34,138 nucleotides of DNA from Alicyclobacillus sp. Lineage in GTDB: Bacteria; Bacillota; Bacilli; Alicyclobacillales; Alicyclobacillaceae. A model generated the notes under the pieces. The model saw only the letters and a program-made list of their open reading frames with translations, was not told where the DNA came from and did not search any database. The position numbers and the translations under genes were made by a program. Numbering within the stretch: position 1 is the first letter of the stretch; each line of letters opens with the position of its first letter. Positions 2,388-31,163 of this stretch are shown piece after piece. The stretch is from positions 1 to 34,138 of the forward strand of contig JAILZF010000009.1 in the NCBI GenBank assembly GCA_023512635.1, in the 5' to 3' direction.

Positions 2388-2446
2388 GCGGCTCCCTCCC
2401 CTCGCTGCGAGGGCGCAGGCCAACCTGACGTGTTCTATGTGTGTTG

Positions 2447-2476: not shown

Positions 2477-2557
2477 CACCCAAATGGACACGGTGCAGGG
2501 GGAGTAGGCAGTGGGCTGGTCCAGACCGTTCGGAGGCCCGCGTCTCCCGTTCAGGTC

Positions 2558-2585
2558 TTCGGAGGATAGCAAACGTTGGTATACT
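2558..2585 (+). promoter_or_regulatory. Candidate sigma-A promoter for the TrpD-like gene
   Basis: A TATACT at 2580-2585 is preceded by TGG, giving an extended -10 (TGN) element. A weak -35 match TTCGGA lies 16 bases upstream at 2558-2563. Transcription would start near 2592, about 80 bases before the ATG at 2671. Confidence 0.45.
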
Positions 2586-2670
2586 GAAAGAAGATCAACC
2601 CTTGCAGCAAGAAAGGTCCCGGTGAAGCAGCGAATGGGCCGCGGGCCAGGCGGGGACAGGAGGCGGGAGG

Positions 2671-3666: not shown

Positions 3667-3727
3667 CACGCCGCGGTGTACCGACCCCAGGCCCCAGCGG
3701 GATCACACGCCTAGGCAGGGTTCCGCA

Positions 3728-5200: not shown

Positions 5201-5227
5201 ATCTATCCCCTTTGTTCAGAGCGTTGT

Positions 5228-5255
5228 GATGATCTGAATGATAAATGAGATCATC
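5228..5255. promoter_or_regulatory. Inverted repeat upstream of the phosphodiester glycosidase gene
   Basis: GATGATCT (5228-5235) and AGATCATC (5248-5255) form a perfect 8-bp inverted repeat with a 12-base AT-rich centre. It lies 28 bases upstream of the glycosidase start, where a promoter or operator is expected, in an otherwise GC-rich sequence. A repressor site is the simplest reading; the AT-rich centre could also hold a -10 element. Confidence 0.4.
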
Positions 5256-5407
5256 CACGCGGGGCTAGTCTAGTTCAAACGGTCCCAAGGCAGAGCCATG
5301 GACCCAGGGGATGGGCGGTGGGGCATCACGCTTGGCGTGGGCAGGCGGGATGTGGCCACGGCGGCTGGGAAGGGAAACCATCGTCTTGAAGACAGGGTGG
5401 GCTTCGC

Positions 5408-7902: not shown

Positions 7903-8363
7903 GGGCAACACCTTTCTATGAGGTCTGGGTGATAGAGCGAGAGCCGGAAGAGAAGCTGGTTTACAGTATTATTCATAGTTGGGGAATATGAGTGGATAAG
8001 CCCACAGGGGGCGGAACGGGGCGTGAAGGGGTGGGCCAGCGGACGCGCCGCCTCATGGGAGGGCTGCTTGGCCTGTCCGTTCCTTCCAATCTAAACCTAA
8101 TCCTCCCAACGGGTTGGCAACCGATCCAACATCTTCGCAAAGGGAATTCGCTACCCTCCAAGAATTGATTCACTCAATCTACTTAGCAATCCTATCCTTC
8201 GTTGGTTTGGAGGGTCGAGGGCTGACAGCGACAGGGTGAACAGGTACAGGGAAACAGTTGCCGGCTATGCAGCTCTCGGGTTTGCAGTCACCGGCTGCAC
8301 AGCGACAGGTCTGCTACCACAGAGACGGACACTTACAACCTTGAGGGAGTGGACCCTAACCCC
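7903..8363. other. Intergenic region between divergent secreted-protein genes
   Basis: These 461 bases must hold the promoters of the L,D-transpeptidase gene (leftwards) and the Ig-repeat gene (rightwards). The first part is AT-richer (AATACTG and TATTCATAG near 7965-7985 could be -10 elements) but no clean -35/-10 pair is visible for either gene. Two imperfect direct repeats, CCGGCTATGCAGC (8261-8273) and CCGGCTGCACAGC (8291-8303), are 30 bases apart in the leader of the Ig-repeat gene. I see no known riboswitch. Confidence 0.5.
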
Positions 8364-11203: not shown

Positions 11204-12469
11204 CTACACCAAACAGGGCAGGGTCTCAAACGAGGCGCCGAGCACCTCCTTCGCGGGGGTGTGCAGCACCCCTTCCAACACGGTGGCGTAGACGGTGCGG
11301 AAGTCGACCGCGTAGGCCAGATCGCCATTGTGGGTGTGGCGCGGCGTTGGGGCTTCTCCGTAGAGGCCCCCTTTAACGCGCGGGCCAATCAAAAACACCG
11401 GGCCGGCCTCGCCGTGGTCGGTGCCGCCGCTGCCGTTTTCCTTAATGCGCCGCCCGAACTCGGAGAAAGCAAGCAGCGTCACCCGGTCCGCGAGCCTGCG
11501 CTGCTGTACATCGCGCAGGAAGGCCCCGACACTGGCAGAAAAGGCACCCAGCGTAGCGCCGTGGTGGGACTCTTCCGCAGCGTGATCGTCGAATCCACCC
11601 ATTTGGGTATAGAAGACGCGGGTGGGCACGCCGGCGCCCATCAGCTCGGCAACCACCTGCAATTGGGCGCCCAGTGCGGTCTGGGGATACCCGGAAGAGG
11701 GCTTGATTTTACCGCTGAACCCCTCCATTTCTTGCATCCCGCCGTACAGCTGTTGGCCTTGTTTGCGGACGTAGGCGAGTGGGTCCGTGCTGCCAGGGTC
11801 TGCATCCTGGGCGTACAGGGTGCGCGCAGCGGCGGCCAGGGCAGGGTTCCACCAGGCGGATTGCTCGGCCGCGAGCCGGTAGGTGTTGGGGCGGATGAGG
11901 CTTGGCACGCTGGCCTTCTGGGCGGCAAAGGCGAGTGGTGCCAACGTGCCCAGGTTGATGGCGCGCAGGGGGTCAGCGGTTGGGGTGGCGGTGAGGTCGA
12001 GGTAGCGGCCCAGCCAACCCGTGTGCTGGCGTAAAGCGGGATCGGCCGTGTGCCAAACAGCCATCGATTGAAAATGAGATAGGATGGGGTTAGGGTAGCC
12101 AACGCCTTGCACAATCGCAACCTGTCCGGCTTGGTACAGGTGTTGCAAGTCCTGCATGTTCGGATGCAGGCCAACCTCAGAGGTCAGCGGCAACACGTCC
12201 TTCTGCTGGATGGCGATGTTGGGACGGGCGTCGTAGTACCAACCTTGCGTGTACGGGATGACGGTGTTCAGGCCATCGTTGCCGCCGGATAACTGCACCA
12301 CCACCAGAACGTCGTTCGCGTTGTGGGCCAACGCAGGGGCACCCACAAGGGCCGCGCGCTGCAGCCATTCTTTGAGCAATGCGCCGCCAAGGCCCGTAGC
12401 CAGCAGCGTCAGTCCGCCGATTTTGAGAAACTCCCGGCGCGTCAGGTACCGTTTCACGGGGAGCACCAT
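11204..12469 (-). CDS. DUF1501 family protein with Tat signal
   Basis: The 421-residue product has a twin-arginine signal near its N-terminus (TRREFLKIGGLTLLATGLGG), so it is probably exported folded by Tat. The body is a DUF1501 protein: VVVQLSGGNDGLNTVIPY, HPNMQDLQHLYQAGQVAIVQGVGY, HFQSMAVWHTAD, MGGFDDHA, LLAFSEFGRRIKENGSGGTDHG. The fold is of the alkaline-phosphatase/sulfatase superfamily and the Asp and His residues of FDDH and TDHG are candidate metal ligands. It begins two bases after the stop of the DUF1800 gene and is certainly co-transcribed with it. The ATG at 12469 is used here; a GTG at 12454 directly before KRYLTRREFL is an alternative. The frame stays open upstream but that part lies over the DUF1800 gene. 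Confidence 0.9.
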   Translation of the reverse strand: MVLPVKRYLTRREFLKIGGLTLLATGLGGALLKEWLQRAALVGAPALAHNANDVLVVVQLSGGNDGLNTVIPYTQGWYYDARPNIAIQQKDVLPLTSEVGLHPNMQDLQHLYQAGQVAIVQGVGYPNPILSHFQSMAVWHTADPALRQHTGWLGRYLDLTATPTADPLRAINLGTLAPLAFAAQKASVPSLIRPNTYRLAAEQSAWWNPALAAAARTLYAQDADPGSTDPLAYVRKQGQQLYGGMQEMEGFSGKIKPSSGYPQTALGAQLQVVAELMGAGVPTRVFYTQMGGFDDHAAEESHHGATLGAFSASVGAFLRDVQQRRLADRVTLLAFSEFGRRIKENGSGGTDHGEAGPVFLIGPRVKGGLYGEAPTPRHTHNGDLAYAVDFRTVYATVLEGVLHTPAKEVLGASFETLPCLV

Positions 12470-12471
12470 CC

Positions 12472-13869
12472 TTAACAGATGTGATACTCGGGGGCGGTCC
12501 AAAGAAGGTAGCGCAACTGTGCCAAGGAGGCATGGCCAGACGCAGAAGCGGCAAAAGTGCGCAACGCCTGCAGGGTGGCCGCTGACGGTTGGAGGATGAG
12601 GGCCTCTTGCAACAAGGGGTCCATCCGCGGGTCTCCCGTCCCCCCGTGGGCCCCGGTGCTGGCAATGTCCGCAGCAGAGGCGGGGGCAGCGGCGGCGGCA
12701 GGGGCCGTGGTGTCCAGGCGTCGTGCGACTTGGTAGGCAAAGTTGAAACGAGCAAGCAGGGTGGCGGAGTTGATCCAGGTCTGCCCGCCAGGCCAGCCAG
12801 CGACGTTGGGCGGATTGAACAGTTGCATCCCGCACGCGGTCAGGGCGCTGTCCAACTGGCGGGCAGGCAGGTTGACCCCTGTGCTGCGCACCAGGCCTAT
12901 GACGAAGTCGACCGGGGATTTCACCAGGCTGCCCACGGCTTGTGCGCTTTGGAACTCGTCTGAGAGAAAAATCGCCTGCATCAGCCGGCCAATATGGTAA
13001 TCCTGTTGCACCCACACGCGTGCAAACTTGTCGATCCACGCGGCAGGCGGGTTGGGATGGACAAACCACTGCAAAATCTTGCCCGTGACAAACGGTGCGC
13101 AGTGAGGGCTTGCTAACAGAATGTCAATGACCTCGGCGGGGCCAAAGTTGCCGGTGCGGCCCAGCAGTGTCTTGACGCCGTCGTCGTGGCGGGCGGCGAC
13201 AAACCGAACCTGGCCCGTCTGTCGGTTGAGCTGGTATCCGGTGAGTGATCGCGCTGCGGCGACGACGTCCTCCTGGGTATACGTCAGTCCGATGGTGAAC
13301 AGTTCCATCAACTCGCGCCCGTAGTTTTCATTGGGCGCCTTTTTGGTGCTGCGGGCGTTGTCCAACCAAATGAGCATGGCAGGGTCGGCGGTGATGTCGA
13401 GCAGCATCTGGCGGAAGGAGCCGAGCGCGTTTTTGCGCAGGGTGTTGTTTTGCTGCAGCATCAGCCACGGTGAGTTGACTTTGGATTCCGCGGTGGCAAA
13501 GTGATTGTGCCAAAACAGGGTCATCTTTTCTAAGAAAGGATGGCGGGTCTGTACCATCCGGGTAATCCAAGCCTCACGCAGGCGGGCAAAGTCGGGGCCG
13601 AGCGTCCCTTTGTGCTCCTGGGCGGGCGGCGCGATGTCAGCGGTCAGGTCGAACGTTGAAGGTGCTGTGGTCACCGCCGGCGCGGCAGGTGCTGCGGGTG
13701 TGGCTGCCGTGTGGGCAGCGGACGCTGGGGTGTCGGAGGCCACCGGGTTCACCAGGCTTTGCACAGTCGCTTCATAGCCTTGCTTTTGCCACTGTTGCAA
13801 CACCGCCAGGTGTTCACCCCCCAACCCGGCTCGCTTAGACAGGTGGACAAAGGCACTCCAGTTGTCCAT
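12472..13869 (-). CDS. DUF1800 family protein
   Basis: The 465-residue product is a typical DUF1800 protein: an N-terminal HLSKRAGLGG, then ITRMVQTRHPFLEKMTLFWHNHF, NYGRELMELFTIGLTYTQED, and near the C-terminus NPPNVAGWPGGQTWINSATLLAR. DUF1800 and DUF1501 genes are found as a pair in many bacteria; the pair's biochemical role is not established. An Ala/Thr/Pro-rich insertion (about residues 43-72) and a second one near 415-430 look like flexible linkers. I use ATG 13869 (GGGGG at eight bases; the protein then starts with MDNWSAFVHLSKRAG); an ATG at 13884 would add five residues. No clear signal peptide is visible although the partner is exported. Confidence 0.88.
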   Translation of the reverse strand: MDNWSAFVHLSKRAGLGGEHLAVLQQWQKQGYEATVQSLVNPVASDTPASAAHTAATPAAPAAPAVTTAPSTFDLTADIAPPAQEHKGTLGPDFARLREAWITRMVQTRHPFLEKMTLFWHNHFATAESKVNSPWLMLQQNNTLRKNALGSFRQMLLDITADPAMLIWLDNARSTKKAPNENYGRELMELFTIGLTYTQEDVVAAARSLTGYQLNRQTGQVRFVAARHDDGVKTLLGRTGNFGPAEVIDILLASPHCAPFVTGKILQWFVHPNPPAAWIDKFARVWVQQDYHIGRLMQAIFLSDEFQSAQAVGSLVKSPVDFVIGLVRSTGVNLPARQLDSALTACGMQLFNPPNVAGWPGGQTWINSATLLARFNFAYQVARRLDTTAPAAAAAPASAADIASTGAHGGTGDPRMDPLLQEALILQPSAATLQALRTFAASASGHASLAQLRYLLWTAPEYHIC

Positions 13870-13988
13870 GGTGATGGCCCCCATCCATCAAAAAGGTGGG
13901 CGGGAGGCCGGGGAACATCTGCGTGCGGGCAGGCCTCCGCCATCGGCAGGCAGCATCCTCAGGAGATGTACGTGCTGCTCCATTGACC

Positions 13989-15102: not shown

Positions 15103-15288
15103 AAGCCTCCCTCCCTCTGGCTGCGGCGTCCATCTTATCCATCAGCGTGCCCGCTTGGGGTCAGGGCATGCAGGGTGGAGAGGGGGAATTCGGACGAAAG
15201 ATCAGTCTTGCGCGCCCGCGGGCTTGATGTGGGCCGCGCCGGCCGTTGCATAGCATACATTCAGGCTTTCCCACATAAGGATGGTCGA

Positions 15289-15338
15289 TAGGTGATGGGG
15301 CTCACCTTCAACGCCTGGACAGGATGATGGCTCCTACG
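15289..15338 (+). ncRNA. Fluoride riboswitch (crcB motif)
   Basis: The aptamer reads TAGGTGATGGGGCTCACC, TTCAACGCCTGGACAGG and ATGATGGCTCCTACG in order. It has the GGNGATGG start, the P1 stem GGTGA/TCACC, the conserved CAACGCC, a short hairpin and the closing TGATGGCTCCTAC, which together are diagnostic of the crcB motif. Its 3' end forms part of the terminator stem at 15329-15358, so fluoride binding should prevent termination and switch on the two CrcB/FluC fluoride exporters. Confidence 0.93.
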
Positions 15339-15373
15339 GATGGTGATTCGTAGGGGCCTTTGCTGTCTTTTGC
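15329..15373 (+). terminator. Riboswitch-controlled attenuator before crcB
   Basis: GGCTCCTACG (15329-15338) pairs with CGTAGGGGCC (15349-15358), ten pairs with one G-U, followed by TTTGCTGTCTTTT. The left arm is also the last conserved part of the fluoride aptamer, so aptamer and terminator exclude each other. This is the expected layout of an 'on' switch. Confidence 0.85.
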
Positions 15374-15394: not shown

Positions 15395-15817
15395 ATGAAC
15401 ATCTTGGCCATTGGGGTGTTTGGATGTATTGGAGGGATGCTCCGGCTTGTCATTGAAAACAGCCTGCACGGACCGCAGGGTTTGCCAGTGGCCACCGTCA
15501 CCATCAATCTAAGCGGATCGTTCCTGTTAGGGTTTTTCCTTGTGATGGCGGAACGGAAAGGGTATCGGGACTGGATTAGGCAGGGGATAGGCGTGGGCTT
15601 GTTGGGGGCCTTGACCACCTTTTCAAATTTTACATTGGACACCTTGCAGCTGTTGCGCACGCATGGGGGGCTGGCCGCTGCCTATGTTGCGCTGAGCCTG
15701 GGGGGCGGGCTGATCTGCGTGTGGTTTGGTGAAGGGTTGGCCAGCCGGGTGTTTGCACGCCCCCTTCCATCCGCCTTGCCGGATGCGGGAGGGTATGCGT
15801 ATGACACTGGCCAATGA
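15395..15817 (+). CDS. crcB: Fluoride channel/exporter CrcB (FluC), first subunit
   Basis: The 140-residue product is a four-helix Fluc fluoride channel subunit. Visible family features are GCIGGMLRLVIEN with the conserved Arg, INLSGSFLLGF with the pore Asn, and GLLGALTTFSNFTLDT with the phenylalanine-box TTFSxF. A 25-residue tail beyond the usual end is encoded partly by sequence shared with the start of the next gene. An AGGAGAG site lies upstream of the ATG. It is under the fluoride riboswitch and overlaps the second crcB by 17 bases; in many Firmicutes the two paralogues form one channel. Confidence 0.93.
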   Translation: MNILAIGVFGCIGGMLRLVIENSLHGPQGLPVATVTINLSGSFLLGFFLVMAERKGYRDWIRQGIGVGLLGALTTFSNFTLDTLQLLRTHGGLAAAYVALSLGGGLICVWFGEGLASRVFARPLPSALPDAGGYAYDTGQ

Positions 15818-16242: not shown

Positions 16243-17061
16243 TCACTGCAGGCTCTCAAACCCGCCGGTGGACAGGGTGAGACCCCCGTCCACGCGGATG
16301 ACCTGCCCGGTGATAAAGCGGGCGGCGTCACTCGCTAAAAAGACGGCCGCGTCGGCCACGTCCTCTGGGGTGCCAAGGCGGCCGAGCGGGGTGTGAGCGA
16401 TGACGTCGCGGCGATAGGCTTCAAACTGGCTGCCTGCGAAAAAGCGGGCTGATTCGGTATCGACCACACCTGGGCAGAGGGCGTTGCAGGTTATCTGCTG
16501 AGGACCGAGTTCGGCGGCCAGGTACCGGATGAGCGATTCTAGTGCAGCCTTGGCGGTGCCGAGCAGGGCGTAGCGGGGCAGGGTATAGTCACTGCCCATG
16601 CTGGAGATGGCGATGACCCGTCCGCCCGGGCTGGGGTCTGTGGCTGAGGCCATGAGCGGCAGGGCGTATTGGACTGCCTGGACCACGCTGTAAACCACGG
16701 TTTTATACGTCCGCTCGAAATGATGGGGTTTGAGTTCCATGACGGGTTTAAACGCGCTGGCGGCGGCGTTGGCGACAAACACATCGAGGCGTCCCCAACG
16801 CTTGCCAATGGCTTCGAACATCGCCTGTAAGTCGTCGTCCACTTCCATTTCAGCGCGCACCACGAAGGTGTCCCGGCCCAGGCGGCGAATCTCCTCTGCC
16901 GTCTGCTCAGCTGCTTCCTGGTTACGCCGATAGTGTATCACCACATCGGCGCCCGCGCGCGCCATGGCCAGGGCACACGCCCGGCCGATGCCGCGGCTGC
17001 TGCCGGTGATGAGGATTTTCTTCCCGGCCAGCACCTGTCCGGTGGGAGTATCTGTTGGCAA
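16243..17061 (-). CDS. FabL-like short-chain enoyl reductase, candidate 1-cyclohexenylcarbonyl-CoA reductase (ChcA-like)
   Basis: The 272-residue product is an SDR with ITGSSRGIGRA at residues 18-28 and VANAAAS at 97. The active site has Tyr164 and Lys171 (YALLGTAK): Y-x6-K, the spacing that marks FabL enoyl-ACP reductase III, in contrast to the Y-x3-K of ordinary SDRs. The C-terminal half (KAALESLIRYLAAELGP, NALCPGVVDTESARFF) is also FabL-like. It may therefore be a housekeeping enoyl-ACP reductase, or, given the adjacent genes, the enoyl-CoA reductase that makes cyclohexanecarboxyl-CoA. The TTG at 17061 lies ten bases after AAAGGAG; no ATG is available. It follows the FadH-like gene in the same direction after a 230-base gap with a strong hairpin. 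Confidence 0.85.
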   Translation of the reverse strand: MPTDTPTGQVLAGKKILITGSSRGIGRACALAMARAGADVVIHYRRNQEAAEQTAEEIRRLGRDTFVVRAEMEVDDDLQAMFEAIGKRWGRLDVFVANAAASAFKPVMELKPHHFERTYKTVVYSVVQAVQYALPLMASATDPSPGGRVIAISSMGSDYTLPRYALLGTAKAALESLIRYLAAELGPQQITCNALCPGVVDTESARFFAGSQFEAYRRDVIAHTPLGRLGTPEDVADAAVFLASDAARFITGQVIRVDGGLTLSTGGFESLQ

Positions 17062-17291: not shown

Positions 17292-19397
17292 CTACAATTC
17301 ATACGCCGCTTCAAACCCTTCCCGGATGGCTCGTGCAGCGTTCAGCCCGCGCGTTTCACGGGCGCCGCCAATCACGCGCAGCCATGGGTGATCCGCCAGC
17401 TCCTCCCATAACTCACGGCGCGGGACTTGGCCTGTACAAATCACCACCTGGTCCGCAGGAATCAGCCGCTCCTCGCCATGGACCGTGCCCAGAATGCCCT
17501 CGTCCACCACAGCTTTTGCCTGGAAGTGGGTGAGGGTTTGAATCCCCAACTCGTGGAGTTCGCTGCGCACCACCCAGCGCGTGGTGCGGCCCACGGTGGC
17601 GGCAATCCGCTGGGACCTCGCCAACAGGGTGATGGTGCGGGGCATCCCCTGGGCCGTGGTCGCGGCTGGACTGCCTGCGCCGTTCGCCGCCGCGGCTGGA
17701 CTCGCCCCAGCGCCTGCCGCCGTACCTGTGGTGGCAGACCAGCCGGGGGCAAGGCGGTGGTGAGCGAGGAACGCCTGCACGGAGGCTGGTGGGTGCGAAC
17801 CCTTCGCCAGGTACAAGGCGACGTCGCAGCCAATCCCACCGGCGCCGAGGATGGCCACGCGCCGGCCAGCGGCGACGCGGCCCGAGAGCAGGTCACTGTA
17901 CGAGACCACGTGGGGCAAATGGACGCCGGGCAAGTCAGGGAGTGCCGGGGCGACGCCGGTGGCCAGCAACACCGCGTCAAAAGCGCGCAGGTCTTGGACG
18001 CTGGCGCGGGTGTTCAGGCGTACCTCCACGCCCAGGCGTGCCAACTCGTGCTGGTAGTAGCGCAGCGTCTCCCAAAACTCCTCCTTGCCTGCCACCTGCG
18101 CCGCCAGCCGCAACTGGCCCCCCAGCACGGGCATCGCCTCAAACAGCGTCACCGCATGGCCGCGCTGTGCCGCGGTCCGGGCAGCCTCAAGGCCGGCCGG
18201 GCCCCCGCCTACCACCGCCACGCGGCGGCTGGAGCGGGCAGGCGCCAGCGGCCAGTCGTATTCCTGCCCGGCGCGCGGGTTGGCCAGGCAACTTGCAGGA
18301 CGGGGCGGCCGGTCCATCACGTGATCGAGACACGATTGGTTGCAGGCGATACACACGTTCAGTCCAGCCCGGTCACCTTGCAGGGCTTTGCGGGCAAAAG
18401 CAGCATCCGCCAGCCAAGGCCGGGCGGGGGCGACAAAGTCGAGCCAACCTAAGGCAATCAGTCGGTCAGCCACTTCGGGCGTGTTGATGCGGTTGGCGCC
18501 AATCACCGGGATGCGCACCGCCGCTTTGATCCCCGCCACGACGGGCGCAAAACCGCCGCGCGGCACAACCGCAGCCACCGTGGGCACGAGGGATTCGTGC
18601 CAGCCTATGCCGATGTTGAGCGCATCCACGCCCGCCTGCTCCAGCCGCTGGGCGAACACCACCGTTTCCTCCCAGGAGGTGCTGCCGGGCATGCAGTCGG
18701 CTCCTGACATCCGGAACAACAGGGGGAAGTCCGGTCCGGTGGCGTCGCGGATGGCTGCCACCACCTCCAGGCTCAGGCGCATCCGGTTCTCCAGGCTGCC
18801 GCCGTACTCGTCTTGCCGCTGGTTGGTGAGCGGCGAGAGAAACTGGTTGAGCAGGTAGCCCTCCGATCCCATCACCTCGACCGCAGCAAACCCTGCCGCG
18901 CGGGCAAAACGCGCGGCGGCGGCAAACGCCTCCACCGTGGCGCGGATGTCCGCGCGGGTCATCGCGCGCGGCGTCTCGCGCGTGAACTTGGAGGCGATGG
19001 CGCTGGGCGCCCACGGCGTAGCCCCAATTTCGTCCGCAAAGGCGTAGCGGCCGGCGTGGAACAGCTGGAGGGCCACCTTCCCGCCTAAGGCGTGCAGGTG
19101 TTCCGCCAACCGCGCCAGTTGCCGTTGGTGATCCGGTTGGGTCAAGCAAAACCAGTGGTCACCGCCCCCCTCCGGGCTCACCGCGGCGCCGCCCGTGATG
19201 ATCAGCGCGGCACCGCCTTGTACGCGCTCCGCGTAGAACGAGTGCAGGCGTTTCTCCTGCGCGCTGTCGCCTTCGACGCCCAGGTGCATGGAGCCCATCA
19301 AGATCCGATGGGGCAGCATGAGGCTGCCGATGCGCCCCGGCTGGGCGAGTGCGGGGTACGTCGACGGGATGAGGGTCCAAGGAGCTGATGTGGACAA
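17292..19397 (-). CDS. fadH: FadH-like 2,4-dienoyl-CoA reductase (Old Yellow Enzyme family, FMN/FAD/4Fe-4S)
   Basis: The 701-residue product has the three-part FadH layout: an FMN-binding TIM barrel (1-330), a 4Fe-4S motif with Cys349, 352, 356 and 370, and FAD and NAD(P) domains (VVGGGPAGLEA near 396; ILGAGGIGCD near 516). The catalytic Tyr (VMGSEGYLLNQF, Tyr181) and His (IGIGWHES, His267) of E. coli FadH are kept, so reduction of a conjugated dienoyl-CoA is likely. A low-complexity Ala/Gly/Thr insertion at about 554-584 lies in the C-terminal domain. The TTG at 19397 follows GAGAGGAGAGGATACG. It is divergent from the EPSP-synthase-like gene and fits reduction of a cyclohexadiene-carbonyl-CoA intermediate. 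Confidence 0.88.
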   Translation of the reverse strand: MSTSAPWTLIPSTYPALAQPGRIGSLMLPHRILMGSMHLGVEGDSAQEKRLHSFYAERVQGGAALIITGGAAVSPEGGGDHWFCLTQPDHQRQLARLAEHLHALGGKVALQLFHAGRYAFADEIGATPWAPSAIASKFTRETPRAMTRADIRATVEAFAAAARFARAAGFAAVEVMGSEGYLLNQFLSPLTNQRQDEYGGSLENRMRLSLEVVAAIRDATGPDFPLLFRMSGADCMPGSTSWEETVVFAQRLEQAGVDALNIGIGWHESLVPTVAAVVPRGGFAPVVAGIKAAVRIPVIGANRINTPEVADRLIALGWLDFVAPARPWLADAAFARKALQGDRAGLNVCIACNQSCLDHVMDRPPRPASCLANPRAGQEYDWPLAPARSSRRVAVVGGGPAGLEAARTAAQRGHAVTLFEAMPVLGGQLRLAAQVAGKEEFWETLRYYQHELARLGVEVRLNTRASVQDLRAFDAVLLATGVAPALPDLPGVHLPHVVSYSDLLSGRVAAGRRVAILGAGGIGCDVALYLAKGSHPPASVQAFLAHHRLAPGWSATTGTAAGAGASPAAAANGAGSPAATTAQGMPRTITLLARSQRIAATVGRTTRWVVRSELHELGIQTLTHFQAKAVVDEGILGTVHGEERLIPADQVVICTGQVPRRELWEELADHPWLRVIGGARETRGLNAARAIREGFEAAYEL

Positions 19398-19488
19398 CGT
19401 ATCCTCTCCTCTCGCATAAAGCGCGCCGGCAGTCATACACATAAAACTAGGCATTCGCCAGATAGGAGCCTCGCCGCACGCCTCCCCT

Positions 19489-19508
19489 ATCCTTGAAGAA
19501 TCCTTGAA
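19489..19508 (+). repeat. Direct repeat in the divergent promoter region of the cluster
   Basis: ATCCTTGAA occurs at 19489-19497 and again at 19500-19508, an 11-base spacing of about one helical turn. It lies in the 212-base gap between the divergent FadH-like and EPSP-synthase-like genes and could be a regulator site or carry -35 elements (TTGAAA at 19504). Confidence 0.45.
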
Positions 19509-19569
19509 ATTCGGGGCGGGCAACGCTACCATTGTTACTATCTAAATTATCATGCTTGGTTTTATAGGC

Positions 19570-19609: not shown

Positions 19610-20956
19610 ATGACGAAAATGATAGTCACTGCCACCCGCGGGGACGTGCGTGGAACCATCCCCGTTCCCTGCTCGAAATACCACCTCCACCGAGCCCTCA
19701 TCCTGGGCTCTTTAGCGGACGGGACGGCCCTCATCCACGGCCGATCCCAGGCCCGCCACATTCAAGACACCCTGAACTCTCTGAAGGACCTCGGCATTCG
19801 CGTAGACCACACGGCTGACGGTTACCGCGTGCACGGTGGTGCCTACGTGCCGCGCAACGGGCGTGTACGCGTGGGCAGTTCCGGCTCGACCCTGCAGTTT
19901 TTGCTCGGCTTGGGCGCGCGGGCGAGTGCGCCGGTCACGTACGACGGCGTCGAGGCGCTGCGCCGGCGTCCGATTGGACCGCTGCTGCAGGCGCTGCAGA
20001 CGCTCGGGGTGCGGACGGAGTCGGTTGACGAGCGGCTGCCGGTGACCGTCTACCCAGGGCTGCCGAAGGGCGGCCAGGTGCAGATACCTGGCGTGCTCAG
20101 CCAGTGGATTTCCGGGTTGCTGATGGTGGCCCCGCTGGCCCAGCAGGACACGGTCATCGAGATTTCCGATCCGTTCAACGAGCGCAACTACATCCGCTTG
20201 ACCGCAGCCATGATGGCACAGTTTGGCGTGCAGGTGCAGGCGTCGCCCGATGAGCGGCACTGGCAGGTGCCGGCAGGACAGGTGTTCCGCTCCGCTGAGG
20301 TGTATCTCGAGCCAGACCTGTCGTCCGCCGCCTTCCCCCTGGTCTACGCGGCTTTGCATCCTGGCGAAGTGCGGCTGACCGGCGTCGCCGGAGCGGGATC
20401 GCACCCGGAGGGCCGGGTGATTGACCTGTTGCGCGAGATGGGCGCGCAGGTGGAGGTGCAGGCGCAAGAACGGCAACTGGTGGTGCGCAACCGCGGCGAG
20501 CGGCTGCGCGCCATCGACGTCAATATGCAAGACATGCCGGACCTCATCCCCATCCTTTCCGTGGCGGCGGCCCTGGCCCGCGGCCGCAGCGTGCTGCGCA
20601 ACATCGGCCCGGGACGGTTGAAAGAGTCGAACCGCGTGCGCGCCATGCTGCAACTGCGCAAAATGGGCGCGCGCATTGAGGAGCAGGGCGACAACTTGGT
20701 GATTGACGGGGTAGAACGGCTGCACGGGGCGGACATCTCCAGCTTCAACGACCATCGTGTGTTGATGGCGTTTGCGGTGGCTGGGAGTGTGGCGGACGGC
20801 GAGACGCGGCTGACGTTCCCCAACGCTTTTCGCATCTCCTATCCCGAGTTCATCGACCATATGAAGGTGCTTGGGATGCGTTTTGGCCCGGCGGCTGCCT
20901 CGGCTGCACCGGCCGCGCCGGTGAAAGAGGAGTTGGTCCCCAGTGTCAGCGGCTGA
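19610..20956 (+). CDS. Diverged EPSP synthase homologue (AroA superfamily), probably a cyclohexanecarboxylate-pathway enzyme
   Basis: The 448-residue product has the enolpyruvyl-transferase fold with several AroA motifs: Lys23 and Arg28 of SKxxxHRAL, RRRPIGPLL, LSQWISGLLM, DMPDLIPILSVAA (Asp311), RLKESNRVRAM (Glu339, Arg342), NDHRVLMAF (Arg383) and ISYPEF. By eye, the NAGTAMR loop reads SSGSTLQ, losing Asn and Arg; the Ser after Lys23 is Tyr; KESDR is KESNR; and the C-terminal Lys of KTFPDYF is not kept. The altered residues contact PEP or shikimate 3-phosphate in true AroA, so this is probably not the housekeeping enzyme. GAGG lies seven bases before the ATG. It overlaps the acyl-CoA ligase gene by 14 bases. 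Inference: it removes an oxygen substituent from shikimate, as proposed for the homologue in the Streptomyces ansatrienin locus. Confidence 0.87.
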   Translation: MTKMIVTATRGDVRGTIPVPCSKYHLHRALILGSLADGTALIHGRSQARHIQDTLNSLKDLGIRVDHTADGYRVHGGAYVPRNGRVRVGSSGSTLQFLLGLGARASAPVTYDGVEALRRRPIGPLLQALQTLGVRTESVDERLPVTVYPGLPKGGQVQIPGVLSQWISGLLMVAPLAQQDTVIEISDPFNERNYIRLTAAMMAQFGVQVQASPDERHWQVPAGQVFRSAEVYLEPDLSSAAFPLVYAALHPGEVRLTGVAGAGSHPEGRVIDLLREMGAQVEVQAQERQLVVRNRGERLRAIDVNMQDMPDLIPILSVAAALARGRSVLRNIGPGRLKESNRVRAMLQLRKMGARIEEQGDNLVIDGVERLHGADISSFNDHRVLMAFAVAGSVADGETRLTFPNAFRISYPEFIDHMKVLGMRFGPAAASAAPAAPVKEELVPSVSG

Positions 20957-22592
20957 TTGGACGTCAAACCACGGTGCGGGTGTGGAACTGTTCCTTGACC
21001 GCTTGGACGCTACCTGCCGTCAGCAGCCCCAGCGGCTGGCTGTGGTGGACCTGAGCTCCGGCGCGCAGCCGGTCTGTCTGACCTACGGCGATCTCGCCGG
21101 ATTGGCGGAGCGGGTGGCGGCGCGCTTGCTGGAGCTAGGCGTCCAGCCTGGGGAGGCGGTTGGCTACCAGTTGCCAAGCTGTTGGGAGTTTGTCGTCTTG
21201 ACGGTGGCGCTCTGGCGGGTGGGAGCGGTGCCTTGCCCGCTTTTGCCGTCGCTGCGCGCGCGCGAGGTGCAGTTCATTCTCGCCACCGCCGGGGTTCGGC
21301 TGTGGGTGGTGCCGGACGAATACCGCGGCTTTGACTACCGCGCGTTGGTGGAACAGGTGCGGCCGCAACTGCCGCAGCTTACCTCGGTGCACATCTTGGA
21401 GTGGGGGGAGCGCTGGCCCCAGCAATCCACCCTGGGCGGGCTGCTGGCGGCACCGGCGGACGCAGCCGCGGCGGCCGCCCGCATACGTGATCGCCGGCCA
21501 GGGCCGGATGCGGCTGCGCAGTTGCTGTTCACCTCTGGGACGACGGGGGAGCCGAAAGGCGTGGTGCACACGCACCTCACGCTGTCCCATGGTTTGGCGG
21601 CGCACGTGCGCACCTTGGGGCTGACAGCAGAGGACACGGTCTGGGTGCCGTCGCCTTTGGCCCACCAGACGGGCTTTTTGTACGGCATGATGGTCTCGCT
21701 CTACCTGGGTGCCACCGGTGTCTATCAGGCCGTGTGGCAGGTGGACGACGCCCGGCGCGCCATTGCACAGTACGGAGCCCGTTTTGTGCAGGCGGCGATG
21801 CCGTTTCTGGCCGATCTCGCGCAGGCGCCCCAACCGCCGCAGGGGCTGCGCCTGTTTGTCGCCACTGGCGCCGCCATCCCGCGCGGTTTGGCGCAGATGG
21901 CGAGGGCGGCGCTCGGTTGTCCTGTGGTAGGGGCCTGGGGCTCCACCGAGACCTGCCTGGTGACGGTTGGTTTTCCGGGAGACCCTCCGGACAAGCTCTG
22001 GGGCACGGACGGCCGGGTGATGGACGGAATGGCCATCCGCATTGTCGACGACGCCGGGCGGCCACTGCCGGCAGGGGTGGAGGGCAACTTCCAGGTGAAG
22101 ACCCCGGCCATGTTCACCGGCTACCTGCACCACCCGGAGTGGACACAAGCCGCCATGACGGCGGACGGGTTTTTCGACACCGGCGATTTAGCGGTGATTG
22201 ACGCGGACGGTTACCTGCACATCAGCGGCCGCAAAAAAGACGTGATTAACCGCGGCGGTGAAAAAATCCCGGTGGTCGAGGTGGAAAACCTGCTCTACCA
22301 ACACCCGCGCGTCCGTGACGCAGCGGTGGTGGCGATGCCCGACCCGCGCTTGGGCGAGCGAGCCTGCGCGTTTGTGGTGAGCAAAGACGGCCAACCGCTG
22401 GACTTGGAAGACCTGACGGCGTTTTTACACGCCCAGGGGATGGCGAAGATCTACTGGCCGGAGCGCGTCGAGATGATGGACGAGCTGCCGCGCACGCCCA
22501 GCGGCAAGGTCCAAAAATACCTATTGCGCCAATGGATTGCTGACAAGCTGAAGGCGGAATGGGCCACCGCCTGTAAGGGTGGACAAGCTTAG
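20943..22592 (+). CDS. AMP-forming acyl-CoA synthetase (cyclohexanecarboxylate-CoA ligase-like)
   Basis: The 549-residue product is an ANL-superfamily acyl-CoA ligase. Visible motifs are the P-loop LLFTSGTTGEPKGVVHTH (near 194), VGAWGSTET (A5), FFDTGDLAVID (A7), YLHISGRKKDVINRGGEKI (A8, hinge) and the catalytic Lys in PRTPSGKVQKY near the C-terminus. It activates a carboxylic acid through an acyl-AMP to the CoA thioester. The sequence resembles short-chain and alicyclic/aromatic acid ligases. The start is GTG 20943, ten bases after GAGGAG and inside the end of the EPSP-synthase-like gene. In context it probably loads the shikimate-derived dihydroxycyclohexadiene carboxylate, or cyclohexanecarboxylate, onto CoA. 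Confidence 0.9.
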   Translation: MSAADWTSNHGAGVELFLDRLDATCRQQPQRLAVVDLSSGAQPVCLTYGDLAGLAERVAARLLELGVQPGEAVGYQLPSCWEFVVLTVALWRVGAVPCPLLPSLRAREVQFILATAGVRLWVVPDEYRGFDYRALVEQVRPQLPQLTSVHILEWGERWPQQSTLGGLLAAPADAAAAAARIRDRRPGPDAAAQLLFTSGTTGEPKGVVHTHLTLSHGLAAHVRTLGLTAEDTVWVPSPLAHQTGFLYGMMVSLYLGATGVYQAVWQVDDARRAIAQYGARFVQAAMPFLADLAQAPQPPQGLRLFVATGAAIPRGLAQMARAALGCPVVGAWGSTETCLVTVGFPGDPPDKLWGTDGRVMDGMAIRIVDDAGRPLPAGVEGNFQVKTPAMFTGYLHHPEWTQAAMTADGFFDTGDLAVIDADGYLHISGRKKDVINRGGEKIPVVEVENLLYQHPRVRDAAVVAMPDPRLGERACAFVVSKDGQPLDLEDLTAFLHAQGMAKIYWPERVEMMDELPRTPSGKVQKYLLRQWIADKLKAEWATACKGGQA

Positions 22593-22624: not shown

Positions 22625-23839
22625 TTGGCAGCAGAGCCATCGTTGCCGGCGCTGAAGGCCGAGATACAAGCGTTTGTACACGGGCCGGCCCGCGCCTGGG
22701 GCGAGCACATTGAGGCCAGCGGGCGATTGCCGGACGGTGTCTGGGACGAGCTGAACGCGCGTGGCTTCCTGCGCTTGGCGGCACCTGTTGCTTACGGCGG
22801 GCTGGGGCTGTCGTTTCCGGCCTACCTCGAGGTGTTTGAGGCGTTTGCACACATGCACGGCTCTCTGCGCGTCATTGTCCACGTCTGCAACGGCTTGTGG
22901 CGGGCGCTTGCGTACGCGGCAACGGCTGAGCAGTTGGAGCGCGTGGTCAAGCCGTTTGTTGCCGGCCAGCGGCGGGTGACGTTCACCCTGACGGAGCCGG
23001 ATTCGGGGGGTGGCACCGACCTGCGCACCACTGCCCGGCGCGAAGGCGACACGTACGTGTTAAACGGCCAGAAGTGGATGATTATCTTTGCGGATGTGGC
23101 GGACGATTTCCTGGTGTTTTGCCGCCTCGCCGGCAGCCGCGGCGCGGACGGCACGCTGGCGCTGCTGGTTCCCCGTGACGCTCCGGGCTTGGAGATCCGG
23201 CCGATGGCGCCGGCGATGGGGGTGACGGGGACGCAGCACGGACACCTGGTGTTCCGCGACTGCCGCGTGCCGGTGGCCAACCGTTTGGGCGAGGAGGGTC
23301 AGGGTCTGGCCGTGGCCTTCAACGGCTTTTTAGACCCGAGCCGCATCGGGGTTGCCATGACCTGCGTAGGCCTGGCTGCGCGTGCGCTCGATCTCGCGGT
23401 TTTGCATGCCCGTCAGCGCGTCACCTTTGGCAAGCCACTCGCGGATCGACAAACGATTCAGATGTGGGTGGGGGAGATGGCCACCGACATCGAGGCGGGC
23501 CGCCAACTGGCGCTGCAAGCGGGGCGTGTCTGGGCTGCCGCCGCAGAAAGCGAGGCGTCTGGCGCAGTAGCGAGGGAAGGCCATCAGGGGGCTAACCCGG
23601 CTGGCGGGGCGGCGCTGGCCAACCGGCCTTCAGCCAGTGCGTGGGCGGCGATGGCCAAGCTGTATTGCGCTGACATGTTGCAGCGTGTGACCGATAAGGC
23701 GTTGCAGATACACGGGGGGATTGGCTATTTCCGCTGCTCGGAGATGGAGCGGGTGTACCGCGACGCGCGCATGCTGCGGTTTGAAGAAGGCACGGCTGAG
23801 ATTCAGAAGCTGGTGATTGCCCGCGAGTGGCTCAAGTAG
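22625..23839 (+). CDS. Acyl-CoA dehydrogenase family flavoprotein
   Basis: The 404-residue product is an FAD-dependent acyl-CoA dehydrogenase: TFTLTEPDSGGGTDL (FAD/substrate loop near 119), NGQKWMI, the helical C-terminal domain with RVTFGKPLADRQTIQ, QIHGGIGYF and RFEEGTAEIQKLVIAR, where the catalytic Glu of the EGT region is kept. A low-complexity stretch of about 30 residues (near 303-333) interrupts the C-terminal helical domain. The TTG at 22625 has a G-rich ribosome site. It follows the ligase by 32 bases in one transcription unit with it and the EPSP-synthase-like gene. In context it may oxidise or, run in reverse, reduce ring positions of a cyclohexenyl-CoA thioester. Confidence 0.9.
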   Translation: MAAEPSLPALKAEIQAFVHGPARAWGEHIEASGRLPDGVWDELNARGFLRLAAPVAYGGLGLSFPAYLEVFEAFAHMHGSLRVIVHVCNGLWRALAYAATAEQLERVVKPFVAGQRRVTFTLTEPDSGGGTDLRTTARREGDTYVLNGQKWMIIFADVADDFLVFCRLAGSRGADGTLALLVPRDAPGLEIRPMAPAMGVTGTQHGHLVFRDCRVPVANRLGEEGQGLAVAFNGFLDPSRIGVAMTCVGLAARALDLAVLHARQRVTFGKPLADRQTIQMWVGEMATDIEAGRQLALQAGRVWAAAAESEASGAVAREGHQGANPAGGAALANRPSASAWAAMAKLYCADMLQRVTDKALQIHGGIGYFRCSEMERVYRDARMLRFEEGTAEIQKLVIAREWLK

Positions 23840-23947: not shown

Positions 23948-24706
23948 TCAACGCTTGAAGACGGCGGCGCCGTCGTCGACGAAAAAGGCGTGTCCGTTGA
24001 TGAACGACGCCTCGTCACTGGCTAAAAAGGCCACAACGTTGGCGACGTCTTCTGGTTTGCCGAGGGCGTGGCGCATGTGGGCGCGCTCTAGGATCTGCCA
24101 GGCGTGCGCGTTGCCGCGCCAGCCGTCGACAAGCGGGGTGTCAATCATCCCAGGGGCGACGGCGACCACACGGATATTGTACTTGGCCAACTCTAAGGCG
24201 GCGGCTTTGGTCATGGCGACCACCGCCGCCTTGCTGGCGTGGTAGGGCAGTTGCCGCCTGTCTACGATATAGGCGTAAATGGAAGCGGTATTGATGATGA
24301 CACCGCCGCGATTCCGCATGGCGGCTGCGGCTGCTTTGATGCCGTAGAACACCCCATCTTGGTTCACCCGTACCACCCGGTGGTACTCCTCAAGGGGCAT
24401 GTCGATCACGTTGTCGCGCCCGTCTCCAAACACACCTGCGTTGTTGAACATGATGTCGAGCTGGCCGTAGGTGGACACGGCCTCCTGGACAGCTTGGCAG
24501 ACGCTGTCGAACGAGGTCACGTCGGTCTGGACAGCGACGGCTTGTCCGCCGGCTGCTTGGATGGCCTGCACCGTGGTCTGCGCGGCTGCGAGGTGCAGGT
24601 CTGCTACCACTACTCGTGCGCCGTCGCGGGCCAAGCGTACAGCGCTCGCCCGCCCAATTCCCCCGCCGCCGCCTGTCACCAGGGCCACTTTTTCAGCCAA
24701 CCGCAT
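23948..24706 (-). CDS. Short-chain dehydrogenase/reductase
   Basis: This 252-residue classical SDR has VTGGGGGIGRA (10-20), an Asp after strand two (VVVADLH, suggesting NAD(H)), FNNAGV, the catalytic Ser in NTASIYAY, and Tyr-x3-Lys in PYHASKAAV, then APGMIDTPLVDG. The C-terminus is longer in side chains than FabG (INGHAFFVDDGAAVFKR). AGGAGG lies eight bases before the ATG. It converges on the acyl-CoA dehydrogenase gene. In the proposed pathway it could oxidise or reduce a ring hydroxyl/ketone; on its own the sequence only says NAD(P)-dependent alcohol dehydrogenase. Confidence 0.9.
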   Translation of the reverse strand: MRLAEKVALVTGGGGGIGRASAVRLARDGARVVVADLHLAAAQTTVQAIQAAGGQAVAVQTDVTSFDSVCQAVQEAVSTYGQLDIMFNNAGVFGDGRDNVIDMPLEEYHRVVRVNQDGVFYGIKAAAAAMRNRGGVIINTASIYAYIVDRRQLPYHASKAAVVAMTKAAALELAKYNIRVVAVAPGMIDTPLVDGWRGNAHAWQILERAHMRHALGKPEDVANVVAFLASDEASFINGHAFFVDDGAAVFKR

Positions 24707-26633: not shown

Positions 26634-26640
26634 TATCTCA

Positions 26641-26727
26641 AACGAAAAAGGCAAACTTGGCGAAAGCCAGGGGCGCAAAGCTACAGGGGCTACAGCGTAA
26701 CGCCAGGCCAGCCAGCTGCCGTTGGAC
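26641..26727 (+). ncRNA. Cyclic-di-GMP class I riboswitch (GEMM-I)
   Basis: The aptamer shows, in order, AAAAAGGCAAACTTGGC, a GAAA tetraloop closed by TTGGC/GCCAG, the conserved GGGCGCAAAGCTAC, a second hairpin GGGGCTACAGCG-TAA-CGCC and CCAGCCAGCTGCCG. The GGCAAAC, GCGCAAAGC and GCAGC-like elements and the GNRA loop with its receptor are the signature of GEMM-I. It sits between a sigma-A promoter and an intrinsic terminator just before a secreted-protein gene, so c-di-GMP most likely controls termination. The direction (on or off) cannot be decided by eye. Confidence 0.85.
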
Positions 26728-26791
26728 AGGCAAGTCTACATATCTGCCTTTGTACTTGATTCCAAAGGATTCCAAAGGTGGACTGGCGTGC

Positions 26792-26821
26792 GTAGGCCCG
26801 TAGCGGCCTACTTTTGTTTTT
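26792..26821 (+). terminator. Intrinsic terminator of the c-di-GMP riboswitch
   Basis: GTAGGCC (26792-26798), loop CGTAGC, GGCCTAC (26805-26811) make a perfect 7-bp stem followed by TTTTGTTTTT. It ends 13 bases before the TTG start of the regulated gene, so read-through is required for expression. Confidence 0.88.
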
Positions 26822-26834
26822 GGGGGCGATAGGA

Positions 26835-27578
26835 TTGCGTAAACAGCGTAAACCGTGGGTTGCTGGGGTGGCTGCCGTGGCGCTGATGGTCATGTCTCCG
26901 GGCACCGCCTGGGCCAACCCGCACAGCGTGGGTGCCGGTCATGCCGGGGGAGGCACAGGCAGCGGATGGAGTGTACCCATGGGCGGGATCGACCGAACCC
27001 TGGGGGGTATAGGGACTGCCTTCTCCCCAGAAGGCTCTGTGACCACCTCGGTTCGACAAAAGCCGGTGACAGATCTGACCTCTGCAACTGCGACGGAGAC
27101 ATCCGACACAGGGGTGACGGGCATCCGTTCCGATCATGACGGCCATCCGGTCCCGCCGCGTGGTCAGGACGTATCCGCCTTGATGCACCTGTTGAATCAG
27201 TTCAACCAGGCAATGATGACGGCGCGCCAGCAGTTGGTGCTCTCTCTGTCATCCTCGACAGCCGCCAACGGATCGCAAACCGCTTGGCAGGCGTACGAGC
27301 AAGCGGTACAACAGGCGGTGGACCAGCTGCAACAGTCCCTGCAGCAGCTGTTGACCCCGGAAGACACCGGGACGGACACCGCAGCGGCGGCAGGCAGCAG
27401 CGGGGATTCCTCCGCTGGCAGCACCAGCTCTGGGGATACATCCTCGACCGCGGGTAGCACCACCACCACCACGGGGACGTCGGATACATCCTCGACCGTG
27501 GGTAGCACCACCACCACGGGGACGTCGGATACATCCTCAACCGCGGGTACCACCACCACCGCGCCAAGTGGCAGCTAA
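26835..27578 (+). CDS. Secreted Ser/Thr-rich protein controlled by c-di-GMP
   Basis: The 247-residue product has a classical signal peptide (RKQRKPWVAGVAAVALMVM..GTAWA, cleavage near residue 27), a variable Gly/Ser-rich part, one helical segment (LMHLLNQFNQAMMTARQQLVLSL.. to QQAVDQLQQSLQQLL, about 114-172, Gln-rich, possibly a coiled coil) and a low-complexity Ser/Thr/Asp tail with three repeats. No membrane anchor or sortase motif follows the tail. TTG 26835 is chosen because GGGGG lies eight bases upstream and the signal peptide starts there. I do not recognise the family. The c-di-GMP switch suggests a role in the sessile/motile change, for instance matrix or adhesion. Confidence 0.75.
   Translation: MRKQRKPWVAGVAAVALMVMSPGTAWANPHSVGAGHAGGGTGSGWSVPMGGIDRTLGGIGTAFSPEGSVTTSVRQKPVTDLTSATATETSDTGVTGIRSDHDGHPVPPRGQDVSALMHLLNQFNQAMMTARQQLVLSLSSSTAANGSQTAWQAYEQAVQQAVDQLQQSLQQLLTPEDTGTDTAAAAGSSGDSSAGSTSSGDTSSTAGSTTTTTGTSDTSSTVGSTTTTGTSDTSSTAGTTTTAPSGS
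27435..27563 (+). repeat. Three tandem 45-48-base coding repeats
   Basis: Units begin with GATACATCCTCGACCGCGGG at 27435 (48 bases), 27483 (45 bases) and 27528 (shorter, CAACCGCGGG). They encode DTSSTxGSTTTTxGTS. The length difference is one ACC codon within the Thr run, a typical slippage site. Confidence 0.85.
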
Positions 27579-28838: not shown

Positions 28839-29216
28839 GGCAACCCTTGCTTCCCCTGGCGCTTCCTGCCGACTCCGTTTCCTCCCGACGCTGTCTGGTC
28901 TTGCCTCGTTTATTTAGCGGCACGGGGGAGGGAAACGGTTGGCTGGTCTGGTGGTCCCCGATTACCCTGAGTGGTCATGTCGGGCCGAATCCCCGGCTGG
29001 GATGGGTTCGACCCTGTTTCTCTGTCTCTGATTTGATTTTTAATGAAATTTCCGCAGATTGCAAGATACCTAGGCGGGCATCTACAGGGGCTTGGCCCGT
29101 GATGAGCTTGCGCCGCATGGTGGGGCGGGGCCAGGAGTCAGCAGGAGCATGGCATTTTTTGTCGAAAGGAGACGAGAACACGCTTGGACGCGTGCAGGGA
29201 GAGAGGGAGTGTGGCG
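28839..29216. other. Intergenic region between divergent PAS-HD and secreted-protein genes
   Basis: This 378-base gap holds an AT-rich island (29030-29055) with TTGATT at 29033 that could be a -35 element for the rightward gene, but no good -10 lies 17 bases on. A short GGGTTCGACCC inverted repeat near 29004 resembles a tRNA T-arm by chance. I see no riboswitch and no remains of the missing half of the MFS gene at 30321. Confidence 0.5.
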
Positions 29217-30317
29217 ATGATCAGACAGCACAACCGCCGGCGAGCGGTGCGGGCAGCCGCGGCGGGCCTGGCGGCGGGGGTGGTGGTGGCGGGAACCGCC
29301 TTGGGCAGTTGCGCCTGGGCCGTGGCCATTCCGTCCAGTGGCTACTACGTGAACGGCAAGTTTTACGCTTCCACCGACTTGAGTACGAGCGCTTACCTGG
29401 TGCAACAACTGAACCAGGCATTAACGCAAGGTCCTTTGTATGTAGAGCTCAACGGGGAGTGGGTGAATTACGGAGACTTTATGGGCACGCACCCAACGGG
29501 GGATTTGCTCAGCGCTTTTAACCAGTATGCACAGCAACACCCGTTTACGTTGCCGCCCGGGACTGTCCAGGTTCACCCGGACGGTTCAACCACGGTGTTG
29601 GTGCCGCCGCAAAACAGTGTGAACGTCAGCAACTCGTCGGCAGGCTGGCCGAACACGCTGACGCTCCAGAACGGGACACCGCTTGTCTTGCAGCCCATTC
29701 TTGAAGACGGCAATGCCCAGCCGGTGACGGGTTTGGCGGCAGCCGATTTCACGCTGGGCGTGGGCGCTTACAGCGTGCCTGCCGCAGGAGCCTGGTACCT
29801 GGGGTCTGGCGTCTACCAGGTTGTGTTTTTACCGTCGAACCTGCCCGGCGGCACCAGTGCCAACGTGACGTTGTCGGTGGACGGGCAGACGGTGGGCATG
29901 GTGAACGGGGTGAGCATCGGCAGCCCGCCGGTGCCGACTGCACCGGTTCTGGCGGGGGCGCAGTTGGCCAGTCTCAACGGCGTGGGTGTTCCCCAGGGCA
30001 GCCTGCAAGGCGGCCAGGTCAGTCAAAACCTGACCAGTACCTTGCCGAACAGCACATACACCTTGGTACTGCAAGCCACCGACGCCGCCGGCAACCCGCT
30101 GAATAATGTTCCTGCGGGGCAGACCTTGACCGTGAGCTGTAACGGCGCGGGCAGCTTGCAGACCGCTGGCGGGACCGCCATCGGGCCGGCAGGCGTCAGT
30201 GTACCGGTGAATAGCAAAGGACAAGCCCTGCTGAGCTTTGCTAGCGGCGACAGTGGATTGACCACCATCACCGTGACCGGCGCTGGGTATACCGACACCC
30301 TCACCCTGTCCAATTGA
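29217..30317 (+). CDS. Secreted protein with the novel N-terminal domain and Ig-like C-terminus
   Basis: The 366-residue product has an Arg-rich signal peptide (residues 1-36). The shared domain follows at 41-129 (SGYYVNGKFYASTDL..YVELNGEWVNYGDFM..NQYAQQHPFTLPPGTVQVHPDGS), close in sequence to those at 8364 and 31164. Two beta-rich, probably Ig-like modules follow at about 140-243 and 252-366; the last has the Big_1-like LQATDAAGNPLNNVPAGQ. ATG 29217 has GGGAG seven bases before it. It stops three bases before half an MFS gene. The architecture suggests an extracellular or surface-associated protein; function unknown. Confidence 0.82.
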   Translation: MIRQHNRRRAVRAAAAGLAAGVVVAGTALGSCAWAVAIPSSGYYVNGKFYASTDLSTSAYLVQQLNQALTQGPLYVELNGEWVNYGDFMGTHPTGDLLSAFNQYAQQHPFTLPPGTVQVHPDGSTTVLVPPQNSVNVSNSSAGWPNTLTLQNGTPLVLQPILEDGNAQPVTGLAAADFTLGVGAYSVPAAGAWYLGSGVYQVVFLPSNLPGGTSANVTLSVDGQTVGMVNGVSIGSPPVPTAPVLAGAQLASLNGVGVPQGSLQGGQVSQNLTSTLPNSTYTLVLQATDAAGNPLNNVPAGQTLTVSCNGAGSLQTAGGTAIGPAGVSVPVNSKGQALLSFASGDSGLTTITVTGAGYTDTLTLSN

Positions 30318-31081: not shown

Positions 31082-31147
31082 GGGACTGCCGCTGTGAGTG
31101 CAGTCCCGTGTATACTGCAGGTATCAAAGGCTTGTCTTAGACCTGCA
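31082..31147 (+). promoter_or_regulatory. Two inverted repeats around a TATACT in the transglutaminase-gene leader
   Basis: GGGACTGC (31082-31089) and GCAGTCCC (31100-31107) form a perfect 8-bp inverted repeat directly before TATACT (31111-31116), a good -10 box without a clear -35. A second repeat, TGCAGGT (31116-31122) and ACCTGCA (31141-31147), ends two bases before the AAGGAG ribosome site. The first could be an operator or activator site, the second an RNA hairpin that affects translation. Confidence 0.5.
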
Positions 31148-31163
31148 TCAAGGAGCGATGACC

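Follow-up and report, generated by a model that had tools for sequence, protein, structure and literature searches.

A divergent EPSP synthase homologue in a putative cyclohexanecarboxyl-CoA operon of Alicyclobacillus and other Bacillota

The AroA-like gene and its conserved neighbours

The window, i.e. the whole stretch of 34,138 nucleotides of an Alicyclobacillus sp. contig that was analysed, contains at positions 19610–20956 of the forward strand an open frame of 448 codons with an ATG start at 19610. The encoded protein is a full-length homologue of the Pfam family EPSP_synthase (288.8 bits) and passes the NCBIfam aroA equivalog model (338 bits, cut-off 287), while its score for the MurA family is below the curated cut-off (85 versus 392.7 bits). 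An AlphaFold model had a mean pLDDT of 90.7, with a low-confidence tail at residues 429–448. Foldseek matched it over the whole chain to EPSPS structures (TM 0.87), and VIA-align superimposed 415 residues onto E. coli AroA (1g6s) with a Z score of 47.7 and an rmsd of 2.2. Judged by family score and predicted fold, the protein is a member of the EPSP-synthase fold family, in accordance with the initial annotation, which had stated that the fold and many AroA motifs are kept.

The stop of the AroA-like gene lies within an acyl-CoA ligase gene (20943–22592, forward strand), and the overlap that had been noted before was verified to comprise 14 bases (20943–20956); the same overlap of 14 bases occurs at two further loci (L037 and L038). 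The best NCBIfam match of the ligase is the cyclohexanecarboxylate-CoA ligase model TIGR03208, with 495 bits below the cut-off of 792. The next gene on the forward strand (22625–23839) encodes a protein of the acyl-CoA dehydrogenase (ACAD) family, for which the nearest models, acryloyl-CoA reductase and cyclohexane-1-carbonyl-CoA dehydrogenase, also remained below their cut-offs. Divergent from these three genes, the reverse strand carries two more. According to family models, one of them (17292–19532) encodes an FMN/Fe-S/FAD flavoenzyme of the 2,4-dienoyl-CoA reductase type (OYE, FadH-like), and its true start is probably internal to this frame, because homology begins only near residues 55–62. 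The other (16243–17040) encodes a FabL-like short-chain dehydrogenase/reductase (SDR) of the enoyl-reductase type with a Y-x6-K motif, a candidate for ChcA (1-cyclohexenylcarbonyl-CoA reductase); its open frame extends to 17241, and conservation supports a start near 17040. A second SDR gene (23948–24706, reverse strand) of the hydroxyacyl/keto type with a YxxxK motif is conserved next to the operon, but solely within the Alicyclobacillaceae.

A search of named genomes yielded 14 loci from Alicyclobacillaceae, Cohnella, Paenibacillus, Sporolactobacillus and two unplaced metagenome-assembled genomes. The ligase and dehydrogenase genes flank the AroA-like gene in all 14 loci, and all five genes occur together in 13 of them as well as in four further loci (L035–L038). 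At the single exception (L043) the ligase and dehydrogenase genes adjoin the AroA-like gene, and the contig ends just upstream, before the other genes. In Cohnella, Paenibacillus and Sporolactobacillus all genes point in one direction, in the order AroA-like, ligase, ACAD, OYE flavoenzyme and SDR. Wherever it is present, the AroA-like gene lies directly upstream of the ligase gene and heads the operon, and among the loci compared the cluster has no second conserved gene that resembles a dehydratase. The ligase motif TSGTTG.PKG, the four-cysteine Fe-S motif of the flavoenzyme and the Y-x6-K motif of the SDR were found in 20 of 20 loci. In seven relatives (L035–L038, L078–L080) the gene after the ACAD gene encodes DAHP synthase, with which the shikimate pathway begins; three of these seven were assigned by a Pfam scan and the others by BLAST matches to those three. 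The window's own operon is devoid of a DAHP synthase gene.

Residue changes and phylogenetic position

The AroA-like protein and E. coli AroA share the fold and about 31% identity, and residues are given here in the numbering of the latter (1g6s), followed by that of the window protein. The catalytic residues K22, R27, R124, D313, K340, E341, R344, H385 and R386 are retained, together with G96, S170, Q171 and Y200. By contrast, the phosphate pocket and a part of the PEP site are altered. The structure-based alignment reproduced all four deviations that had been named by eye in the initial annotation: the NAGTAMR loop reads SSGSTLQ (residues 90–96, including N94 to S90, T97 to S93 and R100 to Q96), the serine after the active-site lysine is a tyrosine (S23 to Y24), the E. 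coli motif KETDR is KESNR (residues 338–342, D343 to N341), and the C-terminal lysine is an isoleucine (K411 to I409). Thus not all catalytic residues are in place. Three further changes, S169 to L163, S197 to E191 and N336 to P334, were absent from that earlier list.

These positions were compared between 16 relatives of the AroA-like protein and 32 canonical AroA proteins. All 16 relatives, without exception, have Y24, Q96, L163, E191 and I409. The canonical proteins have S23, R100 and S169 without exception (32 of 32 in each case), and S, Q or R at position 197. At position 411 they have Lys in 27, Ile in three and a gap in two cases; Ile409 alone is thus not diagnostic, since the three canonical proteins that also align with Ile are class-II-like. 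The change to KESNR is less firm, with Asp in four of the 16 relatives and Asn in one canonical AroA. The residues that bind shikimate-3-phosphate (S23, S169, and S197 or an equivalent donor) are absent from all 16 relatives. S169L and S197E are the two most telling changes, because S169 and S197 of the E. coli enzyme contact the phosphate of shikimate-3-phosphate. The replacement of this pocket by Leu and Glu makes shikimate-3-phosphate an unlikely substrate, and the retained ring-binding residues indicate that unphosphorylated shikimate or its thioester is likely to be bound instead. In the PEP site N94, R100, K411 and also T97 are replaced, while K22, G96, R124, Q171, K340, E341, R344, H385 and R386 are kept. 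The earlier description of altered PEP and shikimate-phosphate residues therefore holds for the phosphate site and several PEP-site positions, while most PEP-site residues are unchanged. As judged by this residue test, the protein is probably not a functional EPSP synthase.

A tree of canonical AroA and AroA-like proteins, along the lines of the one proposed in the initial annotation and calculated with a quick method, placed the 16 AroA-like relatives in one clade of their own with an SH-aLRT value of 100 and a long stem of 2.56 changes per column. The clade is rare: among 398 Bacillota genomes only the window's own genome carries a member, and two weaker matches (37%) belong to another paralogue family. 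The support for the clade and the conservation of the operon from Alicyclobacillaceae to Cohnella and Paenibacillus show that the pattern is far beyond chance.

The assembly from which the window stems (1.76 Mb, 62.8% complete) contains four PF00275 genes, i.e. the window gene, two genes of the MurA type and a canonical aroA with the motifs GDKS, NSGTTMR and RVKETDR on contig C136. The search for a second, canonical aroA was thus successful, and the window gene is not the sole homologue. Separate canonical aroA genes were also found in the other sampled Alicyclobacillaceae that carry the AroA-like gene (G005, G009, G015 and G024) and in seven of seven Cohnella and Paenibacillus genomes searched. 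It is very likely that an automatic annotation of the window gene as AroA is wrong. Since the NCBIfam aroA model accepts the protein, routine annotation will assign this name; the standard model overcalls the clade, which would mislead pathway reconstructions and surveys of EPSPS types.

A possible role in cyclohexanecarboxyl-CoA formation

The gene kinds met in the operon, a CoA ligase, an ACAD, a dienoyl-CoA-reductase-type flavoenzyme and an enoyl-reductase SDR of the ChcA type, are known from cyclohexanecarboxyl-CoA (CHC-CoA) formation in Streptomyces. The set of S. collinus is ansJ-K-L-M plus chcA, and this set and the plm set comprise the same kinds as the Bacillota operon, namely ligase, ACAD, FMN oxidoreductase and ChcA-type SDR. 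The phoslactomycin-type genes are plmJK for an AMP ligase, plmL for a short-chain CoA dehydrogenase, chcA, and plmM for an NADH:FMN oxidoreductase (PMC5852498). The gene order in Cohnella parallels the Streptomyces order J-K-L-M-chcA. In contrast to the Streptomyces set, no polyketide synthase was seen beside the Bacillota operon. Judged by gene kinds and order, the operon probably belongs to the Streptomyces-type CHC-CoA gene set. The initial annotation had named AnsL-like proteins for comparison; gene order points to the J gene instead, so that ansJ, or the J part of plmJK, is the probable Streptomyces counterpart. A tblastn search of plasmid records with the AroA-like, flavoenzyme and ACAD proteins retrieved no CHC locus, and the best Streptomyces AroA match in these records adjoins gpmI rather than CHC genes.

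The lipids of A. acidocaldarius 104-IA contain about 51% and 33% omega-cyclohexane C17:0 and C19:0, respectively (PMC3035248). That omega-cyclohexyl fatty acids are formed from shikimate was recognised as early as 1972, according to the citation of De Rosa et al. in that paper. In A. acidocaldarius 104-IA the ligase, ACAD, OYE flavoenzyme and ChcA-like SDR genes lie together, with 57–67% identity to those of the window and in the same divergent arrangement, followed by a DAHP synthase gene. Thus, the operon is present in an organism known to produce omega-cyclohexyl fatty acids, but without the AroA-like gene, which is absent between the flavoenzyme and ligase genes and elsewhere in the genome. 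Genes for omega-cyclohexyl fatty acid formation are said to have been identified in Sulfobacillus (PMC4378227). In the literature searched, no paper was found that assigns such genes in Bacillota in detail, nor any mention that Cohnella, Paenibacillus or A. mengziensis contain these fatty acids. The conserved operon provides testable candidate genes for omega-cyclohexyl lipid formation in Bacillota.

For the pathway, we infer substrate, dehydration step, order of steps and end product as follows. The operon would convert shikimate to CHC-CoA, the starter of omega-cyclohexyl fatty acids. The CoA ligase would activate the acid, and the AroA-like enzyme would take the first hydroxyl off by a 1,4-elimination of water, with unphosphorylated shikimate as its substrate, either as the free acid or as a thioester, a reaction that the retained residues Lys23, Asp311, Lys338 and Glu339 around the ring could serve. 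The dienoyl-CoA-reductase-type flavoenzyme, the ACAD family protein and the ChcA-like enoyl reductase would then reduce the ring. The first step of the CHC pathway is reportedly a 1,4-elimination of water from shikimate, as concluded from labelling work by Floss, Reynolds and co-workers, and the AroA-like protein is proposed as the shikimate dehydratase because it is the sole dehydration candidate in the operon. Against this assignment, the complete pathway requires the loss of three hydroxyls, for which the operon contains only one dehydratase candidate.

It is highly probable that the protein is something other than an EPSP synthase and that its gene is part of a CHC-CoA-type operon. It is somewhat probable that this EPSP synthase paralogue no longer makes EPSP and acts as the dehydratase of shikimate, or shikimoyl-CoA, that starts CHC-CoA synthesis. 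The broadest version is tentative, i.e. that an enzyme of the EPSP-synthase fold, now dehydrating unphosphorylated shikimate (or shikimoyl-CoA) without PEP, opens the omega-cyclohexyl route across Bacillota and was lost and replaced by another enzyme several times in Alicyclobacillaceae, including A. acidocaldarius. A changed reaction on a shikimate-like substrate, as suggested in the initial annotation, is consistent with the changes in the phosphate and PEP sites, the separate aroA and the five-gene operon, and it is the reaction itself that we infer.

Besides A. acidocaldarius, four other sampled carriers of the operon (G006, G012, G022 and G036) lack the AroA-like gene. Of the PF00275 family, each of these genomes has one aroA plus murA genes; one murA is split in A. 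acidocaldarius, and G006 contains an additional short fragment. In a tree of the four shared operon proteins, carriers that have the AroA-like gene are mixed with those that lack it, so that at least three changes are needed. From this distribution the gene is read as ancestral and lost several times, although it may have been gained rather than lost. The five carriers without it indicate that the AroA-like gene is not needed for CHC-CoA there. For A. acidocaldarius it follows that either the first step is performed otherwise or the step assignment is wrong; the enzyme would be replaceable, or it has a role that is dispensable in this species. No remnant of the gene was found in the 1.4 kb gap at one such locus (L082), and no conserved replacement gene near the operon in the genomes lacking it. 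Two candidate replacements were rejected. A second ligase-ACAD-ADH-SDR module is found in genomes that have the AroA-like gene, in others that lack it and even where the operon is missing, and a bifunctional canonical Alicyclobacillus AroA (N94A, K340H) does not fit G012 and G022, which lack the AroA-like gene and have another AroA type. That close relatives differ in having the gene raises one clear question, i.e. which enzyme performs the first dehydration of shikimate.

The same distribution bears on an alternative with the same operon and product, in which the AroA-like protein performs another or auxiliary step, such as a later dehydration or a dienoyl-CoA isomerisation, and an enzyme common to all carriers performs the first dehydration. 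The operon of a proven producer that lacks the gene and the mixed pattern on the operon tree speak for it, while the position of the gene at the head of the operon, directly upstream of the ligase gene, and the lack of any other conserved dehydratase-like gene in the cluster speak against it; we regard it as unlikely. Still less probable is that the protein has remained a PEP-dependent carboxyvinyl transferase, acting on a shikimate-like alcohol without the 3-phosphate, so that the operon product would be enolpyruvyl-derived. A PEP-dependent reaction is conceivable because most PEP-binding residues are kept, and a second divergent paralogue family with S197E, encoded beside an ABC transporter, illustrates that such changes need not mean a dehydratase. 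Nevertheless, K411, N94, T97 and R100 are changed, and it is not evident what the neighbouring reductases and the ligase would do with an enolpyruvyl ether. That the protein is an ordinary EPSP synthase or a backup, possibly tolerant to glyphosate and near a CoA ligase by coincidence, agrees with the passed aroA cut-off, but is very improbable in view of the canonical aroA in every carrier genome searched, the phosphate-site replacements in 16 of 16 relatives and the conservation of the operon across families. Equally improbable is a catabolic operon for cyclohexanecarboxylate or quinate/shikimate, leading to aromatics or beta-oxidation: the ligase and the ACAD resemble enzymes of cyclohexanecarboxylate degradation, but both oxidoreductases are of a reductive type (Y-x6-K enoyl reductase, dienoyl-CoA reductase), related operons contain DAHP synthase, and the operon is present in an organism known to make the reduced product.

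Other AroA and MurA variants and further features of the window

A divergent AroA paralogue of Bacillota (L108, L109) shares S197E, K411I and an SQW motif with the window protein at 36–37% identity, but in contrast to it retains S23, N94 and T97. In this family R100 is replaced by Tyr, and in one of two contexts inspected (L110, L111), that of L111, the gene adjoins those for a branched-chain-type ABC transporter and for an IclR-type regulator, and CHC-type genes are absent. The sole AroA of Alicyclobacillus sensu stricto (L092, L095, L096 and related loci) has N94A and K340H (motif HHESDR) and keeps the phosphate-site serines; from its residues it is classified as an unusual EPSPS type. In A. 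acidocaldarius (contig C1 of the genome, positions 1940–6106 of locus L112) murA2 has murB and divIB as its neighbours and is interrupted at about codon 88 by an insert of 2.8 kb, which contains a gene for a YpdA-like flavoprotein and a large serine recombinase. The same split was found in another genome (G032), and seven more genomes of the genus have four PF00275 pieces, which suggests that the insert is a skin-like excisable element.

Elsewhere in the window, a fluoride riboswitch aptamer (15282–15343, forward strand) lies directly upstream of a gene for a CrcB fluoride channel (15395–15817, forward strand), and a pair of DUF1501 and DUF1800 genes is located at 11204–13884 on the reverse strand. 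A c-di-GMP-I riboswitch (26640–26723, forward strand, 76 bits) lies upstream of an open frame (both within 26640–27578) whose predicted product is rich in Ser, Thr and Gly, looks secreted and has no Pfam match. Three further secreted-looking proteins (8349–10901, 29184–30317 and 31098–33191, all on the forward strand) have a common N-terminal motif, in which SGYYINGxFY... precedes LNGE..NYxxFM and HPFxLP; one of them contains Big_1 domains and another a transglutaminase core.
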